Part shown: positions 3,272-51,105 of the stretch, piece by piece | Layout: each line of letters opens with the position of its first letter | How positions within the stretch are numbered: position 1 is the first letter of the stretch | Assembly (NCBI GenBank): GCA_024275165.1 | Contig: JAJRZQ010000023.1 | Location: 1 to 56,520 of the forward strand | DNA from: a bacterium | GTDB taxonomy: Bacteria > SAR324 > XYD2-FULL-50-16 | Length of the DNA stretch: 56,520 bases | Direction of reading: 5' to 3' | The notes under the pieces: model-generated | Told to the model about the DNA's origin: nothing | The model's input: only the letters and a program-made list of their open reading frames with translations | The model's database searches: none | Position numbers and translations under genes: made by a program

Positions 3272-4069
3272 ATGAAACGGGCTATCCATAAAGTGGTTTT
3301 TAAGGCTGACAGCGTTGCGGGCCGAGCCTTTGACCTCGGCGTGATGAGCATGATCCTGCTCAGTGTTTTGGTGGTCATGCTCGATAGCATTGCCTCCTTG
3401 CAAGCCCCCTGGGGAAGGGTTTTTTTCTGGACTGAATGGGGCTTTACCCTGTTTTTTACCCTCGAATACCTCTTGAGGCTTTATTCAGCCAAAAAACCCC
3501 TCCAATATGCCTTTAGCTTTTTTGGCGTCATTGATCTTTTAGCCATTCTGCCTAGTTATCTCAGCTTATTGGCGCCGGGGAGCCAGTACCTCTTAGTCGT
3601 ACGCACTCTACGGACCTTGCGCATTTTTCGGGTTTTAAAACTCACCTTTTATGTCAAGGAAGCGCAGAGTCTTAGCGCTGCCGTGGGCCGCAGCCTGGGT
3701 AAAATTATTATTTTTTTAAGCTTTATCGTGATTTTAGTCATCATCTTAGGCAGCTTGATGTACCTTGTTGAGGGCAGTGAAAACGGGTTTACCTCCATCC
3801 CCCGCAGTATGTATTGGGCTATTGTTACCCTGACCACGGTGGGTTATGGAGACATCAGCCCTAAAACCAATCTGGGACAATTTTTGGCCAGCTTGGTGAT
3901 GTTGATGGGTTACGCCATCTTGGCCGTGCCCACGGGAATTGTCACCGCAGAGCTTTCAAAGGGTACCCAAGCATCCACAAACCAACCTTGTACCGCCTGC
4001 GGAAAAAAGGACTTGGAAGCTGACTCAAAATATTGTAGATATTGTGGAACTCTATTATCGAACTCTTAA
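3272..4069 (+). CDS. Voltage-gated potassium channel with C-terminal zinc ribbon
   Basis: A six-helix ion channel of 265 residues. S1-S3 fall at roughly 21-40, 50-70 and 82-98. S4 (about 105-124, core RTLRTLRIFRVLK) has Arg every third position, the voltage-sensor signature. S5 is near 140-165. The selectivity filter TVGYGD is at 189-194, and S6 runs about 203-225. After S6 the protein adds a short zinc ribbon with CxxC pairs at 240/243 and 255/258 (CTACG, CRYCG). Family knowledge makes it a K+-selective tetrameric inner-membrane channel. The metal-binding tail is seen directly; its role, perhaps sensing or tetramer assembly, is open. The stop codon at 4067-4069 is followed at once by a structured repeat. 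Confidence 0.85.
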   Translation: MKRAIHKVVFKADSVAGRAFDLGVMSMILLSVLVVMLDSIASLQAPWGRVFFWTEWGFTLFFTLEYLLRLYSAKKPLQYAFSFFGVIDLLAILPSYLSLLAPGSQYLLVVRTLRTLRIFRVLKLTFYVKEAQSLSAAVGRSLGKIIIFLSFIVILVIILGSLMYLVEGSENGFTSIPRSMYWAIVTLTTVGYGDISPKTNLGQFLASLVMLMGYAILAVPTGIVTAELSKGTQASTNQPCTACGKKDLEADSKYCRYCGTLLSNS

Positions 4070-4290
4070 GGACCCTCTGAAAAACTTCTTGCCTACCGCT
4101 TGTTCAAGCGGTAGGCTTCGTGCCCTTCGGGCTGATTATAGCCCTGGGGGGGCGTCAAGTTTTTCAGTCTTTTCGGTTGGGAATAAAATCCACAACCTCA
4201 ACGCGAATCAAGAAATTATACTTTTTGATTTGGCAAGGCATCCCTGCCTTGCTGGGAAACTCCGCGTTTTTCAGAGTTTCCTTAATTTTT
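4070..4290 (+). repeat. Structured dispersed repeat, copy A
   Basis: About 220 bp, closely matching 22392-22616 in reverse orientation. It is a chain of inverted repeats. An outer stem, CTGAAAAACTT (4077-4087) with AAGTTTTTCAG (4157-4167), encloses a perfect 12-bp stem (4091-4102 with 4105-4116) and GCCCTTCGGGC (4122-4132). Next come GGTTG/CAACC, AATCAA/TTGATT, GCAAGGCA/TGCCTTGC, and a final GGAAACTC/GAGTTTCC pair. In copy B the last base pair of the outer stem is changed on both sides, so pairing is kept. It begins at the base after the K+ channel stop codon. Reading frames across it differ between copies, so it is probably non-coding. Confidence 0.85.
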
Positions 4291-6446: not shown

Positions 6447-8300
6447 CTAAAACCTGCATTGGCCTAAGCTCCGAGGCTTACATTTTACGCCTTCCTTCCA
6501 TAAAGCCCCCGATAAATCGGCTTGGTTAAGCTTCACTTGAGAGAGGTCGCTGCCCAGCAAATCGGCTCCCCTTAAATCGGCGTGGCTTAAATTACTCAAG
6601 AGAAAACGGGTTTTCCGCAAGCGCGCGCCCGCAAGATTGATCCGGGCCAAATCCGCCTGTACCAAACCTCCTTCAAAAAAAATCCACCTCGCGTCCGCCC
6701 CCACCAAACTTGTTGGGGTTTTGTTTTCCCGCCGCATCACCACTCGGTTGAGGTGGGCGCGACGCAAATCGGCTCCCGCAAAATTAACCCCCTTTAAAAC
6801 CAAGCTCTGCAGGTTGGAACGCCGGAGGTCTGCCTGGGAAAAATTCGCCAAGGTGAGATCGGCTCCCTGCATATGGGCTTCTTTCAAGACGGCCCGAGGC
6901 AATTGAGCCTGAACCAATTTTGCGTCTTCTAAAAGAGCAAACTTGAGATTTGCCCCTGCTAGGTTCGCGCCACTTAAATCCGCGCCGCGCAAATTGGTTT
7001 TTTCCAAATCCGCCTCAGCCAATTGCGCAAAGCGCAAGTCCGCGCCCGCAAGGTCGAGTCGATCCAGCTTCAACCCCTTTAAGGGGGCCCCCATGAGATT
7101 GCAGCGGGGGCAATCCAACTTGGCTTGCACCCTTTTTAGGTGCTGGGCGTTAAACCTTGCGCACAACCCGATGGAGGGGGTTGAACAAAGGGTTCCCTCT
7201 GTCCAGGTGGCCCCGGAAAAATCAGCTAAAGCTAATTTCGCCCCGACGAGGCTTGCCCCTTTTAAATTGGCTTTTCTTAAATTGGCCCCCCTTAAATCCG
7301 CCCCGGAAAGGTCTACCCCCGGCCAATCCGCGCCTGGGGCTTGGAGGGCCATTAATAGGCAACCGGGGCAACCCTTTTGGGTCAAGATCACTTGCCTGTT
7401 CAGCTCAATCAATTCAGCCAAGGCCTTGTGTTTAAACAACCCCTGGGGATAACGCCGCAAAAAGGCGCGATAGGCCCTTCTCGTTCCTTTTTGCCGCGCC
7501 CGCTCAAAATAAATCTTCTCTCTCAACTCCTTGGCGGCAATTTGGTGTTTCCCCGCTGGAAAGGCTTTCTCATAGGCCCTTAACTTGGCTAAATCCCTCG
7601 ACTGCTGGGCCGCCCTAAAAAGCAACTCTTCACGAACGGCCATGGAGGCCCCCCTGAGTTGGCCTAAGGGCCAGGCCAGCTCAAAGGCTTCATAGGCCTC
7701 TGGAGTATTTTTTTCTTTTGCTGTCGCAAAATCAAATTGCTCCGCTAAAAAACGGGCTGTGCGGGCAAAGCGCCCCTGAGGGTAAAGCCGGATCAACTCT
7801 TGCAACTGAGAAGAACTTTTTACCCGCTTTGCCTGCCGAAACAGAGCCTGTTCATGCGCCTTTTTTGCTTGACTGCTCCGCCGATGTCGGGGGAACCTTT
7901 GCAGGTAAGCTTGCCAGCCCCTCACGCTGTCTTCTCGCTTTGCTTGGGCAAACAGCAAGGCCTCAAGCTTAGCGCGATAAACTTGCCTCTTCTCCCCTTG
8001 GGGAAAATATTCCAAGTAAGTCGTCAGGTAAAGAATGGTCGGATTTTTTTCAATCGCCTCTAACAAAAGTTGAGACAAAACCCTTTTGGCTTCGGCGGTA
8101 AATTCGCTGTGGGGGTATTCTTGCAAAAATACTTGGAGCGACTCCGGGCTGCGGCTCGCCTTGGCTTTTTCAAAAGCCGACTGGGCGCAACCGACTAAGA
8201 AAAAAACCAGGAGAAGAAAGAAAATTGAATAAAAGCGTTTCACGCGTTGTTTTGCTCGATAAGATAAACTCAGTATGAGCCCTTTTTTTTTTAGAATCAA
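6447..8300 (-). CDS. Pentapeptide-repeat lipoprotein with helical N-terminal repeats
   Basis: A hydrophobic segment ends in the lipobox LVGC (Cys at about residue 38), so this should be a lipid-anchored envelope protein. Residues about 45-320 form degenerate helical repeats with a recurring LQxxLxxYPxxxF pattern, resembling TPR/Sel1-like solenoids. From about 330 to the end run A(D/N)LxxA pentapeptide repeats, predicted to stack into a right-handed beta helix. The repeats come in blocks introduced by CPGC and CPRC and closed by GTLCSTPSIGLC and GVKCKPRSLGQC. The listed start is TTG (8300); a GTG at 8243 would give a tighter signal peptide beginning MKRFYSIFF. It is transcribed away from the FG-GAP gene. 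Binding partner unknown. Confidence 0.78.
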   Translation of the reverse strand: MILKKKGLILSLSYRAKQRVKRFYSIFFLLLVFFLVGCAQSAFEKAKASRSPESLQVFLQEYPHSEFTAEAKRVLSQLLLEAIEKNPTILYLTTYLEYFPQGEKRQVYRAKLEALLFAQAKREDSVRGWQAYLQRFPRHRRSSQAKKAHEQALFRQAKRVKSSSQLQELIRLYPQGRFARTARFLAEQFDFATAKEKNTPEAYEAFELAWPLGQLRGASMAVREELLFRAAQQSRDLAKLRAYEKAFPAGKHQIAAKELREKIYFERARQKGTRRAYRAFLRRYPQGLFKHKALAELIELNRQVILTQKGCPGCLLMALQAPGADWPGVDLSGADLRGANLRKANLKGASLVGAKLALADFSGATWTEGTLCSTPSIGLCARFNAQHLKRVQAKLDCPRCNLMGAPLKGLKLDRLDLAGADLRFAQLAEADLEKTNLRGADLSGANLAGANLKFALLEDAKLVQAQLPRAVLKEAHMQGADLTLANFSQADLRRSNLQSLVLKGVNFAGADLRRAHLNRVVMRRENKTPTSLVGADARWIFFEGGLVQADLARINLAGARLRKTRFLLSNLSHADLRGADLLGSDLSQVKLNQADLSGALWKEGVKCKPRSLGQCRF

Positions 8301-8463
8301 CCCCCCTTCCAGGCTTTCTTATTAAATTGAAACCGAATATAACTCAAACTGATATCGCTTCTTATCCCCATAAAAAATAACTCTTTTGGAGATTTTTTCC
8401 CTCTTGGCCGAAGCTGCTCACACTTTTTGCATTGCCCTTAAAAGAATCCAAGCCAATTCCAAC

Positions 8464-11274
8464 ATGAAGTACCCTATTTTCTTATTCCTCTTCACCTTTT
8501 TCTTCCTCTCCCCCCCCCTAGAGGCAAAAACGGTGCGGTACAAATGGGAACAACAATATTACGGCCTGCTCAAGGGCCAGCAAAGCCTGCTGTTTTCCAG
8601 AGAAATGCGCAATTCCAAGCTCGCCTTCGCGGATATTGATGGGGATGGAGACCAAGATGTCTTTATGGGGAAAGCGAACGGTGAAATCGCCTTTTTTGAA
8701 AATCAAGGAACGGAAAAAAAACCCAATTTTGTTTTGCTCACCCAACAGTACAAAGCAATTTTTGAACTGCGAAAAAAGGGCAAAAAAATCAAGGTCTGGA
8801 ATCAAATTGATGTGGGGGAAAACAGCGCGCCCTTTTTGGTGGATATCGACAATGACGGGGATTATGACCTCTTTATCGGCAGCAATGATGGCCGCATCTG
8901 GCAATTTGAAAACCAGGGCAACAACCTGATTCCCGTCTTTAAGCTCATTACCCCTAAGTTTGAAAATATCTTAGTGGGGAAAAACAGCGCCCCGGTGTTT
9001 TATGATGTCAACCTGCAACGAAAATTTGATCTTTTAATCGGCACCGTCGATGGCAAGGTCTGGCTGTTTTATAATGAAGGAACGCGTTTTAAGCCGGATT
9101 TTAAATCCAAAGAGCCGACCAAGGTCGTTGATTTTGGCCTAGAAACCCACGCGAGCCCGAGCCTATTTGATTGGGACAACGACCAAGACCTCGATATGTT
9201 GGTGGGGCAAAAAAACGGAACCTTGAGCCTCTACATCAATGAAGGGGACCGCTTCTTCCCCAATTGGAAGTTAAAAGAAGATAAATTTCAGCAAATTGAT
9301 ATCGGCGGGGAATCAGCTCCCGTTTTCGTTGATCTCGACCACGACCAAGACCCGGATATGGTGATCGGCAGCGCCAACCCAACGGTGAGCTATTACGAAA
9401 ACCGTATCCAGGGGGGGAACCATGTTTTATGGAACATTACCACCAACCTCTTCCACTTCAATAAGCTGGTCATCACCGGGAACCGAGCGAGCATCGCTGC
9501 CGGCGATTTGGATGGGGATAAGGATTTGGACCTCATCGTGGGAGAAAAAACCGGCAATCTCAACTACTTTGAAAATAAAACCAAAACCAATGTACCTGAC
9601 TGGGAGTTGATCACCGAAGACCTGATCTTCATGACGGGCATGGAAAACTCCGCCCCCACCCTAGGCGATCTGGATCAAGATGGGGACTTAGACCTGCTGA
9701 TCGGCGATAAACAGGGGAGGATCGCCTTTGTGGAAAACACGGGAAATAAAAACAGCCCCAAATGGCAATTGCGAGACAAAACCTATTTTCGGATTGATGT
9801 GGGTTCCAATGCGGTCCCTCGCTTACTGGATATAGATAAAGATGGAGACCTAGACCTCTTAATCGGCAATTTTACGGGTCGGGTGATTTTGTATTTAAAC
9901 AAAGGCACCCCCAAAGAGCCCCTATTTGCTTTGGAGGCAACCCGTTTTGCCTCTGCCAAGGCGGAAAGGAACGCGGTCCCCTCCTTTTTCGACTGGAACC
10001 AAGACCAATTGCCCGACCTGATCTTAGGCGATGCCCAGGGAAAACTCCAGCTCTACCTCAATCCCGGCCCAGACGCCAAAGACACCGTCAATTGGCCCCT
10101 GGATACCGAACCCTTATCGACCTTTGATGTTTCCGCCCTCAGCCACCCTATTTTTGACGATTTTGACGGGGATGGGGCTCCCGACCTCTTAATCGGCAAT
10201 GAGGAGGGAGATTTTCTCTTATACCTCAACAAGGGCACCGAAACCGAAGACCAAGCCTTGCAAGTGGTGGTGGACAACTCCATTGACCAAAAGGCAGGCA
10301 GTTTGGTGGTCGAAAATGTAGAAGGCCCGATTGAACTGGATATCACCGAAGAAGTGACCAGCGAGTTGGAGGATGAAGGCAGCTTAGAGCCGCTTGATCT
10401 GTCTTTGAGCACCCTTGGAAGAGAAGAACAACAATTCATCGACCCCAAATGGGTGCGCGTCGCTACCCCCTTGCTCAGCAATCGGCATATTCGCCGCTCT
10501 AGCCCTACCTTTGGAGACCTAGATCAAGATGGAGACTTCGACCTCATTGTCGGCACCTCTACGGGGAAACTCTTCTATTTTGAAAATGAAGGCTCTGATA
10601 AGGAATGGGACTTCAAAGAAAAAAGCAATGACTTTTTAAAAATCAGAGGCGTGATCAACACCGCCCCCCTCTTAATCGATCTCGATCAGGATGGGGACTT
10701 AGACCTCTTGGTCGGCACCGGTTCCGGGCAACTTTTACTCTATGTCAATCAAGGTTCGAGCGAAAAGGCCAACTTTGTTTTAGACAAAGCCGCCTTCCAC
10801 CGCATCTGGTTGGGGAAAAATTCTCGTCCTGGAGTTTTGGATTTGAACAATGACAACATCTTAGATATTCTGGTAGGCAATCTCTGGGGGAAACTGATCT
10901 ACATTCAAAACGAAGCGGACCGCTTTGCGGTGATCCGCCGGGACTACCAAGCCATGGATGTCGGTATCGGCTCTACCCCAAACCTGGCCGATATCAATAA
11001 TGACAATCAATTGGAATTGATGGTTGGCTCGGACGCGGGCCCCATTCACTTTTACCGCAACAGTGGCCCCGGCTATAGCGGCCAGTGGGAACTCCTGCCC
11101 CATTGGGGGGGAGAGCAGAATTTTGCCAAAGGCACCTCTCCCACCGCGGTGGATCTTGATAATGACGGAGATTTAGACCTCGTAACGGGAAGCGATGTGG
11201 GCGTAATCTTTTTATATCGCAATGACGCGATCATCCATGAGCTGGATGAGCAAAATAACCTGGAGGAACCATGA
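8464..11274 (+). CDS. Secreted FG-GAP/VCBS repeat protein
   Basis: The ATG at 8464 gives a clean signal peptide (MKYPIFLFLFTFFFLSPPLEA); an upstream in-frame ATG at 8386 would bury it behind 26 residues, so I prefer 8464. The 936-residue product is built from about a dozen or more units of the type DxDxDGDxDLLIGxxxGxxxxxENxG, the Ca2+-binding FG-GAP/VCBS pattern of beta-propellers. An acidic linker (about residues 620-665) splits the repeats into two sets, which suggests two propellers. Such proteins are usually extracellular or periplasmic binding or adhesion platforms; enzymatic motifs are not visible. The stop overlaps the start of the next gene by ATGA, so the two products are probably made in a fixed ratio. 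A divergent promoter region lies at 8301-8463. Confidence 0.83.
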   Translation: MKYPIFLFLFTFFFLSPPLEAKTVRYKWEQQYYGLLKGQQSLLFSREMRNSKLAFADIDGDGDQDVFMGKANGEIAFFENQGTEKKPNFVLLTQQYKAIFELRKKGKKIKVWNQIDVGENSAPFLVDIDNDGDYDLFIGSNDGRIWQFENQGNNLIPVFKLITPKFENILVGKNSAPVFYDVNLQRKFDLLIGTVDGKVWLFYNEGTRFKPDFKSKEPTKVVDFGLETHASPSLFDWDNDQDLDMLVGQKNGTLSLYINEGDRFFPNWKLKEDKFQQIDIGGESAPVFVDLDHDQDPDMVIGSANPTVSYYENRIQGGNHVLWNITTNLFHFNKLVITGNRASIAAGDLDGDKDLDLIVGEKTGNLNYFENKTKTNVPDWELITEDLIFMTGMENSAPTLGDLDQDGDLDLLIGDKQGRIAFVENTGNKNSPKWQLRDKTYFRIDVGSNAVPRLLDIDKDGDLDLLIGNFTGRVILYLNKGTPKEPLFALEATRFASAKAERNAVPSFFDWNQDQLPDLILGDAQGKLQLYLNPGPDAKDTVNWPLDTEPLSTFDVSALSHPIFDDFDGDGAPDLLIGNEEGDFLLYLNKGTETEDQALQVVVDNSIDQKAGSLVVENVEGPIELDITEEVTSELEDEGSLEPLDLSLSTLGREEQQFIDPKWVRVATPLLSNRHIRRSSPTFGDLDQDGDFDLIVGTSTGKLFYFENEGSDKEWDFKEKSNDFLKIRGVINTAPLLIDLDQDGDLDLLVGTGSGQLLLYVNQGSSEKANFVLDKAAFHRIWLGKNSRPGVLDLNNDNILDILVGNLWGKLIYIQNEADRFAVIRRDYQAMDVGIGSTPNLADINNDNQLELMVGSDAGPIHFYRNSGPGYSGQWELLPHWGGEQNFAKGTSPTAVDLDNDGDLDLVTGSDVGVIFLYRNDAIIHELDEQNNLEEP

Positions 11275-15513: not shown

Positions 15514-15560
15514 TCCCCTGCCTTGCCGGGAAACTCCGCGTTTTTCAGAGTTTCCTTAAG
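15514..15560. repeat. Partial copy C of the structured repeat
   Basis: Only the right end of the repeat seen at 4070-4290 is present: CCCTGCCTTGC followed by the GGAAACTC...GAGTTTCC hairpin and TTAA. The TTA of that end (15556-15558) is the stop codon of the bacteriohemerythrin gene on the opposite strand. The left part of the element is missing. Confidence 0.7.
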
Positions 15561-22391: not shown

Positions 22392-22616
22392 TTAAATTAA
22401 GGAAACTCTGAAAAATACAGAGTTTCCCAGCAAGGCAGGGATGCCTTGCCAAATCAAAAAGTGGTACTTCTTGATTCGCGTTGAGGTTGTGGATTTCATT
22501 CCCAACCGAAAAGACTGAAAAACTCGATGCGCCCCAGGGGCCATAATCAGCCCGAAGGGCACGAACCTACCGCTTGAACAAGCGGTAGGCAAGGAGTTTT
22601 TCAGAGGTTTCTTCAA
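22392..22616 (-). repeat. Structured dispersed repeat, copy B
   Basis: A second full copy of the element at 4070-4290, in reverse orientation, filling the gap between the cheR stop codon (22617-22619) and cheY. The outer stem here is CTGAAAAACTC (22515-22525) with GAGTTTTTCAG (22594-22604); copy A has T-A where this copy has C-G. The terminal hairpin is a perfect 10-bp GGAAACTCTG/CAGAGTTTCC in this copy. The repeat reads in the direction of the che transcript, so it would be present in the mRNA between two cistrons. An ORF of 74 codons across it is not conserved in frame in copy A. Confidence 0.85.
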
Positions 22617-51007: not shown

Positions 51008-51105
51008 GGAGGCGGATGGGTATCTGGTGTGCCCCCCGGTCTTCAAAACCGTGTGAAGGGCCTGGAAAGGCCCTTGGTAGGTTCGATTCCTACGCGCCTC
51101 CGCCA
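51008..51105 (+). tRNA. selC: tRNA-Sec (selC, UCA anticodon)
   Basis: A 98-nt tRNA with 3' CCA (51103-51105). Acceptor GGAGGCG pairs with CGCCTCC; the eighth pair expected for tRNA-Sec would be G-G here. The anticodon stem CGGT/ACCG encloses CTTCAAA with anticodon TCA, reading UGA. The variable arm is long and perfect: AAGGGCC/GGCCCTT with loop TGGAAA. The T arm GTAGGTTCGATTCCTAC is standard. These features identify selenocysteine tRNA. An organism with it should also have SelA, SelB and SelD, none of which is in the window; mnmH here also uses selenophosphate. Confidence 0.95.

Follow-up and report, generated by a model that had tools for sequence, protein, structure and literature searches.

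Prokaryotic MITEs such as QMITE2 of Coxiella are short, bounded by terminal inverted repeats (TIRs), flanked by target-site duplications (TSDs), numerous and intergenic, and their transcripts have predicted stable folds (PMC10969869). BOX, RUP and SPRITE of Streptococcus pneumoniae are likewise intergenic and MITE-like, sometimes nested, and have stable predicted structures (PMC10969869). Two further systems are relevant for comparison, namely the IS5 family (IS5 group), in which the duplicated target is the tetramer YTAR (PMC10359306), and the REP/BIME repeats with their RAYT enzymes, which are also dispersed intergenic palindromes. The repeat described here shares the general features of QMITE2-type elements, but differs from them in sequence, host and inferred driver and in occurring as several nested size classes; it is unrelated in sequence to BOX, RUP and SPRITE, and we claim no membership of these families. 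It resembles the IS5 family in a 4-bp target duplication, of which about half of the exact cases are YTAR, and in that IS5-family relics in the same genome bear its ends (GGARNCTCTGAAAA), but it carries no transposase gene and its interior is unrelated. Unlike REP/BIME, it has target duplications and resides in a genome in which no Y1 transposase was found.

The window (the whole 56,520-nt stretch of DNA analysed) is one entire contig of a 2.69 Mb genome comprising 47 contigs. The repeat in it is real: the window contains two copies of ~211 bp, which share about 90% identity across 212 bp, and one truncated right end. The original prediction had placed the two copies at 4070-4290 and 22392-22616; both are present, with true limits of 4070-4281 and 22401-22611. 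It was based on two genuine copies out of about 70, and missed the third copy, the TIRs and the TSDs. The features in the window are as follows:

4066-4069, no strand: TTAA, TSD to the left of copy A (sequence and TSD statistics)
4070-4281, + strand: MITE copy A, full-length, 212 bp, with G at 4070 and C at 4281
4070-4085, + strand: left TIR of copy A, GGACCCTCTGAAAAAC (family consensus GGAAMCTCTGAAAAAC)
4091-4116, + strand: hairpin of copy A, GCCTACCGCTTGTTCAAGCGGTAGGC (self-inverse match, folding)
4253-4281, + strand: right terminal hairpin of copy A, GGGAAACTC-CGCGTTTTTCA-GAGTTTCC
4266-4281, - strand: right TIR of copy A, GGAAACTCTGAAAAAC as read on the - strand
4282-4285, no strand: TTAA, TSD to the right of copy A (sequence and TSD statistics)
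about 15526-15555, - strand: truncated MITE copy, right-end hairpin with the left part lost, flanking TTAA at 15556-15559
22401-22611, - strand: MITE copy B, full-length, 211 bp, flanks TGAA/TTAA matching at 3 of 4 positions

Copy B sits between two co-directional genes. The TTAA to the left of copy A contains the TAA stop codon of an upstream ion-channel-like gene. This gene (3272-4069, + strand) encodes a potassium-channel-like protein with a TVGYGD filter and a C-terminal zinc-ribbon-like motif.

The ~16-bp TIR (GGAAMCTCTGAAAAAC) is inverted at both ends and is common to all size forms of the element. Searching for this pattern at ≤2 mismatches gave 189 genomic matches, compared to 9 for a reversed control. 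When elements were delimited to start at GG and end at CC, identical 4-bp flanks were found for 35 of 70 TIR-bounded copies, against a mean of 8.0 (maximum 16) when left and right flanks were re-paired among copies in 2000 trials. Identity at flank lengths of 2, 3 and 5-8 bp was not above the corresponding re-pairing controls. Among full-length copies, 28 of 48 had exact 4-bp TSDs. The duplicated tetramers were mostly TTAA (14), TAAA (4), TTTA (4), TATA (3), TTAG (2) and CTAA (2), and YTAR accounted for 18 of the 35 exact TSDs vs 1.1% of genomic tetramers; the remaining half or so were A/T-rich tetramers outside strict YTAR (e.g., TAAA, TTTA, TATA and TGAA). As a test for an empty site, the flanks of one nested insertion (contig C46) were joined; the match grew by only ~4 columns (46.5 vs 41.7 bits), too weak a result to serve as proof. 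The element combines several features by which MITEs are recognized, namely TIRs, a TSD of fixed length, short length without a transposase gene and many dispersed copies. The repeat is a new MITE family, none having been found described in the host lineage.

Literature searches combining Lambdaproteobacteria with inverted repeat found no paper, and those combining SAR324 with insertion sequence found nothing relevant by title or abstract. The closest named relative found was a Candidatus Lambdaproteobacteria MAG, a placement that is tentative because it relies on one gene at 41% identity.

Element counts are based on pattern searches and on fetched stretches amounting to 884 kb after merging. 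In the genome, 69 sites matched a 20-base pattern taken from the element's right half, and the reversed control gave none. The fetched DNA contained 56 near-full-length copies and about a dozen ~150-bp forms lacking the first two hairpins (including GCCTACCGCTTGTTCAAGCGGTAGGC of copy A), in addition to forms of 44-57 bp and 27 bp. Mean divergence of copies from the consensus was 6.3%. BLASTn found no match to the element among 57 other sampled genomes, nor was there a match in plasmid and phage records, and viral contigs scanned with an exact pattern yielded none. On these searches, phage or plasmid cargo was rejected.

The gene context of the copies was evaluated using mechanically called open reading frames (ORFs), which made 89% of the fetched DNA coding. 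All 70 TIR-bounded copies scored as intergenic, a result that is approximate as short ORFs with more than half of their length in an element had been removed beforehand. Copies were found between convergent gene pairs more often than expected (21/68 vs 17.4%, p = 0.006), and between divergent pairs in 14/68 cases (28% expected, p = 0.18). Those between tandem genes showed no strand preference, with 15 oriented with transcription and 18 against it. This context fits insertion into A/T-rich intergenic DNA together with loss of harmful insertions, and not an orientation-dependent RNA signal.

Short intergenic palindromes, including about 16 solo 27-bp hairpins, could also be REP-like sequences that a RAYT (Y1/TnpA-REP) single-strand transposase has dispersed, with the 27-bp hairpin as the basic unit. 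However, the Y1_Tnp domain (PF01797) was not found in the genome, while five control genomes scored, and the repeat has clear 4-bp target duplications and a two-ended TIR architecture. IS200/IS605-type enzymes are not known to make target duplications. RAYT-driven spread was rejected given the missing domain, and we regard it as extremely improbable. The original prediction had found no fit to REP or to any RNA family it could name, which agrees with the empty Y1_Tnp and Rfam searches.

A further possibility is that the repeat functions as a structured RNA (a 3′ mRNA element, or an array of terminators or attenuators), that selection on base pairing maintains it, and that its origin as a mobile element is incidental. 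The chain of hairpins originally described is present, the stem sequences quoted for the two copies were correct, and the + strand folded as RNA is very stable (-102.8 kcal/mol, z = -9.3). Stem columns are also somewhat less variable than loops (0.051 vs 0.085), which may in part reflect subfamily markers; the enrichment between convergent genes would likewise suit such a role, as would a second, diverged subfamily (type B, below) in which the hairpin at this position differs in sequence. Nevertheless, an alignment of 55 full-length type-A copies (A2) did not bear out the compensatory T-A/C-G change on which selection had been argued. The cited pair (A2 columns 22/93) reads C-G in 27 copies, C-A (broken) in 24, T-A in 2 and T-G in 2; column 93 varies between A and G independently of column 22 (Fisher p = 1.0). 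Pair 11/102 of the same stem is broken in 27 of the 55 copies. Across a seven-helix structure, 93.7% of cells were paired vs 93.6% after shuffling, and four pairs had double changes vs 2.7 in shuffles. The covariation score showed no excess in the 55 copies (0.050 vs 0.049 shuffled, with 139/500 shuffles as high), and the RNAalifold covariation term was -1.07 kcal/mol. The original prediction had itself named a lack of excess covariation among aligned copies as a refutation, and this is the outcome seen here. In type B, pairing was just weakly above shuffles, 23/500 of which reached the observed number of paired cells and 55/500 the observed number of double changes.

None of 4227 Rfam families matched over the element at the gathering score (the best weak match, E = 0.11, was far below it), and a known RNA family was rejected; a terminator scan around copy A showed no excess (1 vs 0.8 in shuffles). 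The unbiased strand relative to genes leaves the proposed 3′ element, terminator or attenuator unsupported. Among the copies, no sign of selection on base pairing emerged and this option was rejected; the evidence for a selected RNA structure does not hold, and the RNA reading as a whole seems improbable to us. The internal hairpins are best regarded as structure that travels with the element. Two copies can hence mimic compensatory evolution that 55 copies fail to support, and what appeared to be a new structured RNA is replaced by a concrete family of mobile elements in a bacterial lineage, probably SAR324/Lambdaproteobacteria, that has been little studied.

The original prediction had also offered a non-autonomous mobile element as an option, and this one is supported by the TIRs, the 4-bp TSDs and the shared ends of IS5 relics. 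The host genome contains several decayed IS5-family genes. One relic (C29:167068) matches the NF033581 IS5 family transposase (E = 2e-27) and DUF772, with GGAGGCTCTGAAAAGTTCC located 86 bp upstream of its ATG. A second (C28, 61 kb) consists of an IS5 C-terminus followed by the right end GGAGCCTTTGAAAAATTCC. The third (L158:1391-1595; C29, about 104.75 kb) is a ~205-bp internal-deletion IS5, in which some 190 bp from the left end of the same IS5 are fused to a right end; its limits are GGAGCCTCTGAAAAAT and GGAATCTCTGAAAATA. Similarity of the MITE consensus to this derivative is confined to the two ends (16-18 bp, 94%), and 2-3 of the 16 TIR positions differ between the relics and the MITE. With ≤3 mismatches allowed, the reversed control gave TIR-like sites at a rate of 3.6e-5 per position, which would make a chance site at each of the three relics very unlikely. 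The L158 derivative is possibly an early-stage MITE.

Judging from these shared ends, the element probably owes its spread to an IS5-type transposase that has since decayed. Such an enzyme would have recognized the ends GGARNCTCTGAAAA and inserted the element into YTAR-like, T/A-rich tetramers with a 4-bp duplication, and we infer that this IS5 enzyme, rather than another, was responsible. No intact IS5_4-type transposase was found in the genome, and the IS5 copies with matching ends are all decayed. None of the IS5 loci retrieved from relatives showed convincing TIRs, so they provided no intact IS5 with matching ends. Because no intact enzyme copy was found, this assembly probably holds a stranded MITE family, whose element would now be immobile. 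An unrelated, decayed IS5-like relic (C46; L124:6767-7657) was rejected as a candidate, having different ends (GAGACCTCTGCAT). Another DDE transposase has left two near-identical relics (C29:120.5-121.6 kb and C14:144 kb).

The same MITE might instead have been mobilized by a transposase other than that of the IS5 relics, for example one absent from the assembly. The MITE interior has no detectable homology to the relics, the TIRs differ by 2-3 bp, the TSDs are broader than YTAR, and an unrelated bacterium (G094) has a MITE with similar ends and no IS5_4 transposase match. Against this, the motif terminates three independent IS5 relics of this genome, one of which is itself short, derived by deletion and matching at both ends. 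We consider another driver unlikely, and a MITE with ends GGARNCTCTGAAAA, moved by an IS5-type enzyme with 4-bp duplication at YTAR-like sites, quite likely. The G094 repeat (~151 bp; e.g., L199:256-406, L201:2101-2252 and L208:1912-2062) has ends GGACTCTCTGAAAAACTC ... GGAACCTCTGAAAAAGGC, very similar to those of the MITE, and a different interior with one long hairpin; some copies have 4-bp flank repeats. It apparently represents a separate MITE whose ends are alike, in a bacterium that shares only its domain with the host.

The shorter forms of the MITE (150, 44-57 and 27 bp) look like deletion products. The right terminal hairpin also occurs alone elsewhere, as 27-bp mini elements that read GGAACCTC-CGCGTTTTTCA-GAGTTTCC. 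The commonest left end of the MITE is GGAACCTC, and the inner arm of the right hairpin is mostly GGAAACTC (35/55 copies). Among about 16 solo minis, 11 have the left-end-type arm and 6 have exact 4-bp flanks (both judged by eye). These forms look like a left end joined to the right hairpin, as a deletion between these two 8-bp direct repeats would produce, and the 44-48-bp forms would fit deletion between two GTTTTTCAG repeats; deletion between internal direct repeats may thus account for the 27-57-bp forms in general. Alternatively, the minis may transpose independently. The size series (211, 150, 44-57 and 27 bp), the IS5 relics and the deletion derivative would together illustrate, within one genome, the ageing of a MITE family once its likely driver has died.

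Type B is an older, diverged subfamily of about 7 copies, the better matches being 75-81% identical to the query. It has the ends and an AATCAA...TTGATT hairpin in common with type A, and carries an unrelated 15-bp hairpin at the site of the type-A 7-bp hairpin. At one locus (L164; C16:187855-188190), a type-A and a type-B element adjoin at GGAAACTCTGA, an arrangement that resembles a recombination chimera or a nested insertion between subfamilies. A same-position hairpin of unrelated sequence could mean that the hairpin architecture itself is maintained, with the 27-bp hairpins and their 4-bp duplications being mobile themselves, a combination to which we give little credence. If they are true mobile units, the 27-bp hairpins would be among the smallest transposable elements known.

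Other features of the window include a 962-aa protein with FG-GAP/VCBS-like repeats, as judged by eye (8386-11274, + strand), which is adjoined by pentapeptide-repeat proteins (e.g., 6447-8300). A selenocysteine tRNA at 51008-51101 (+ strand; RF01852, 69.9 bits) suggests selenoprotein synthesis in the host.
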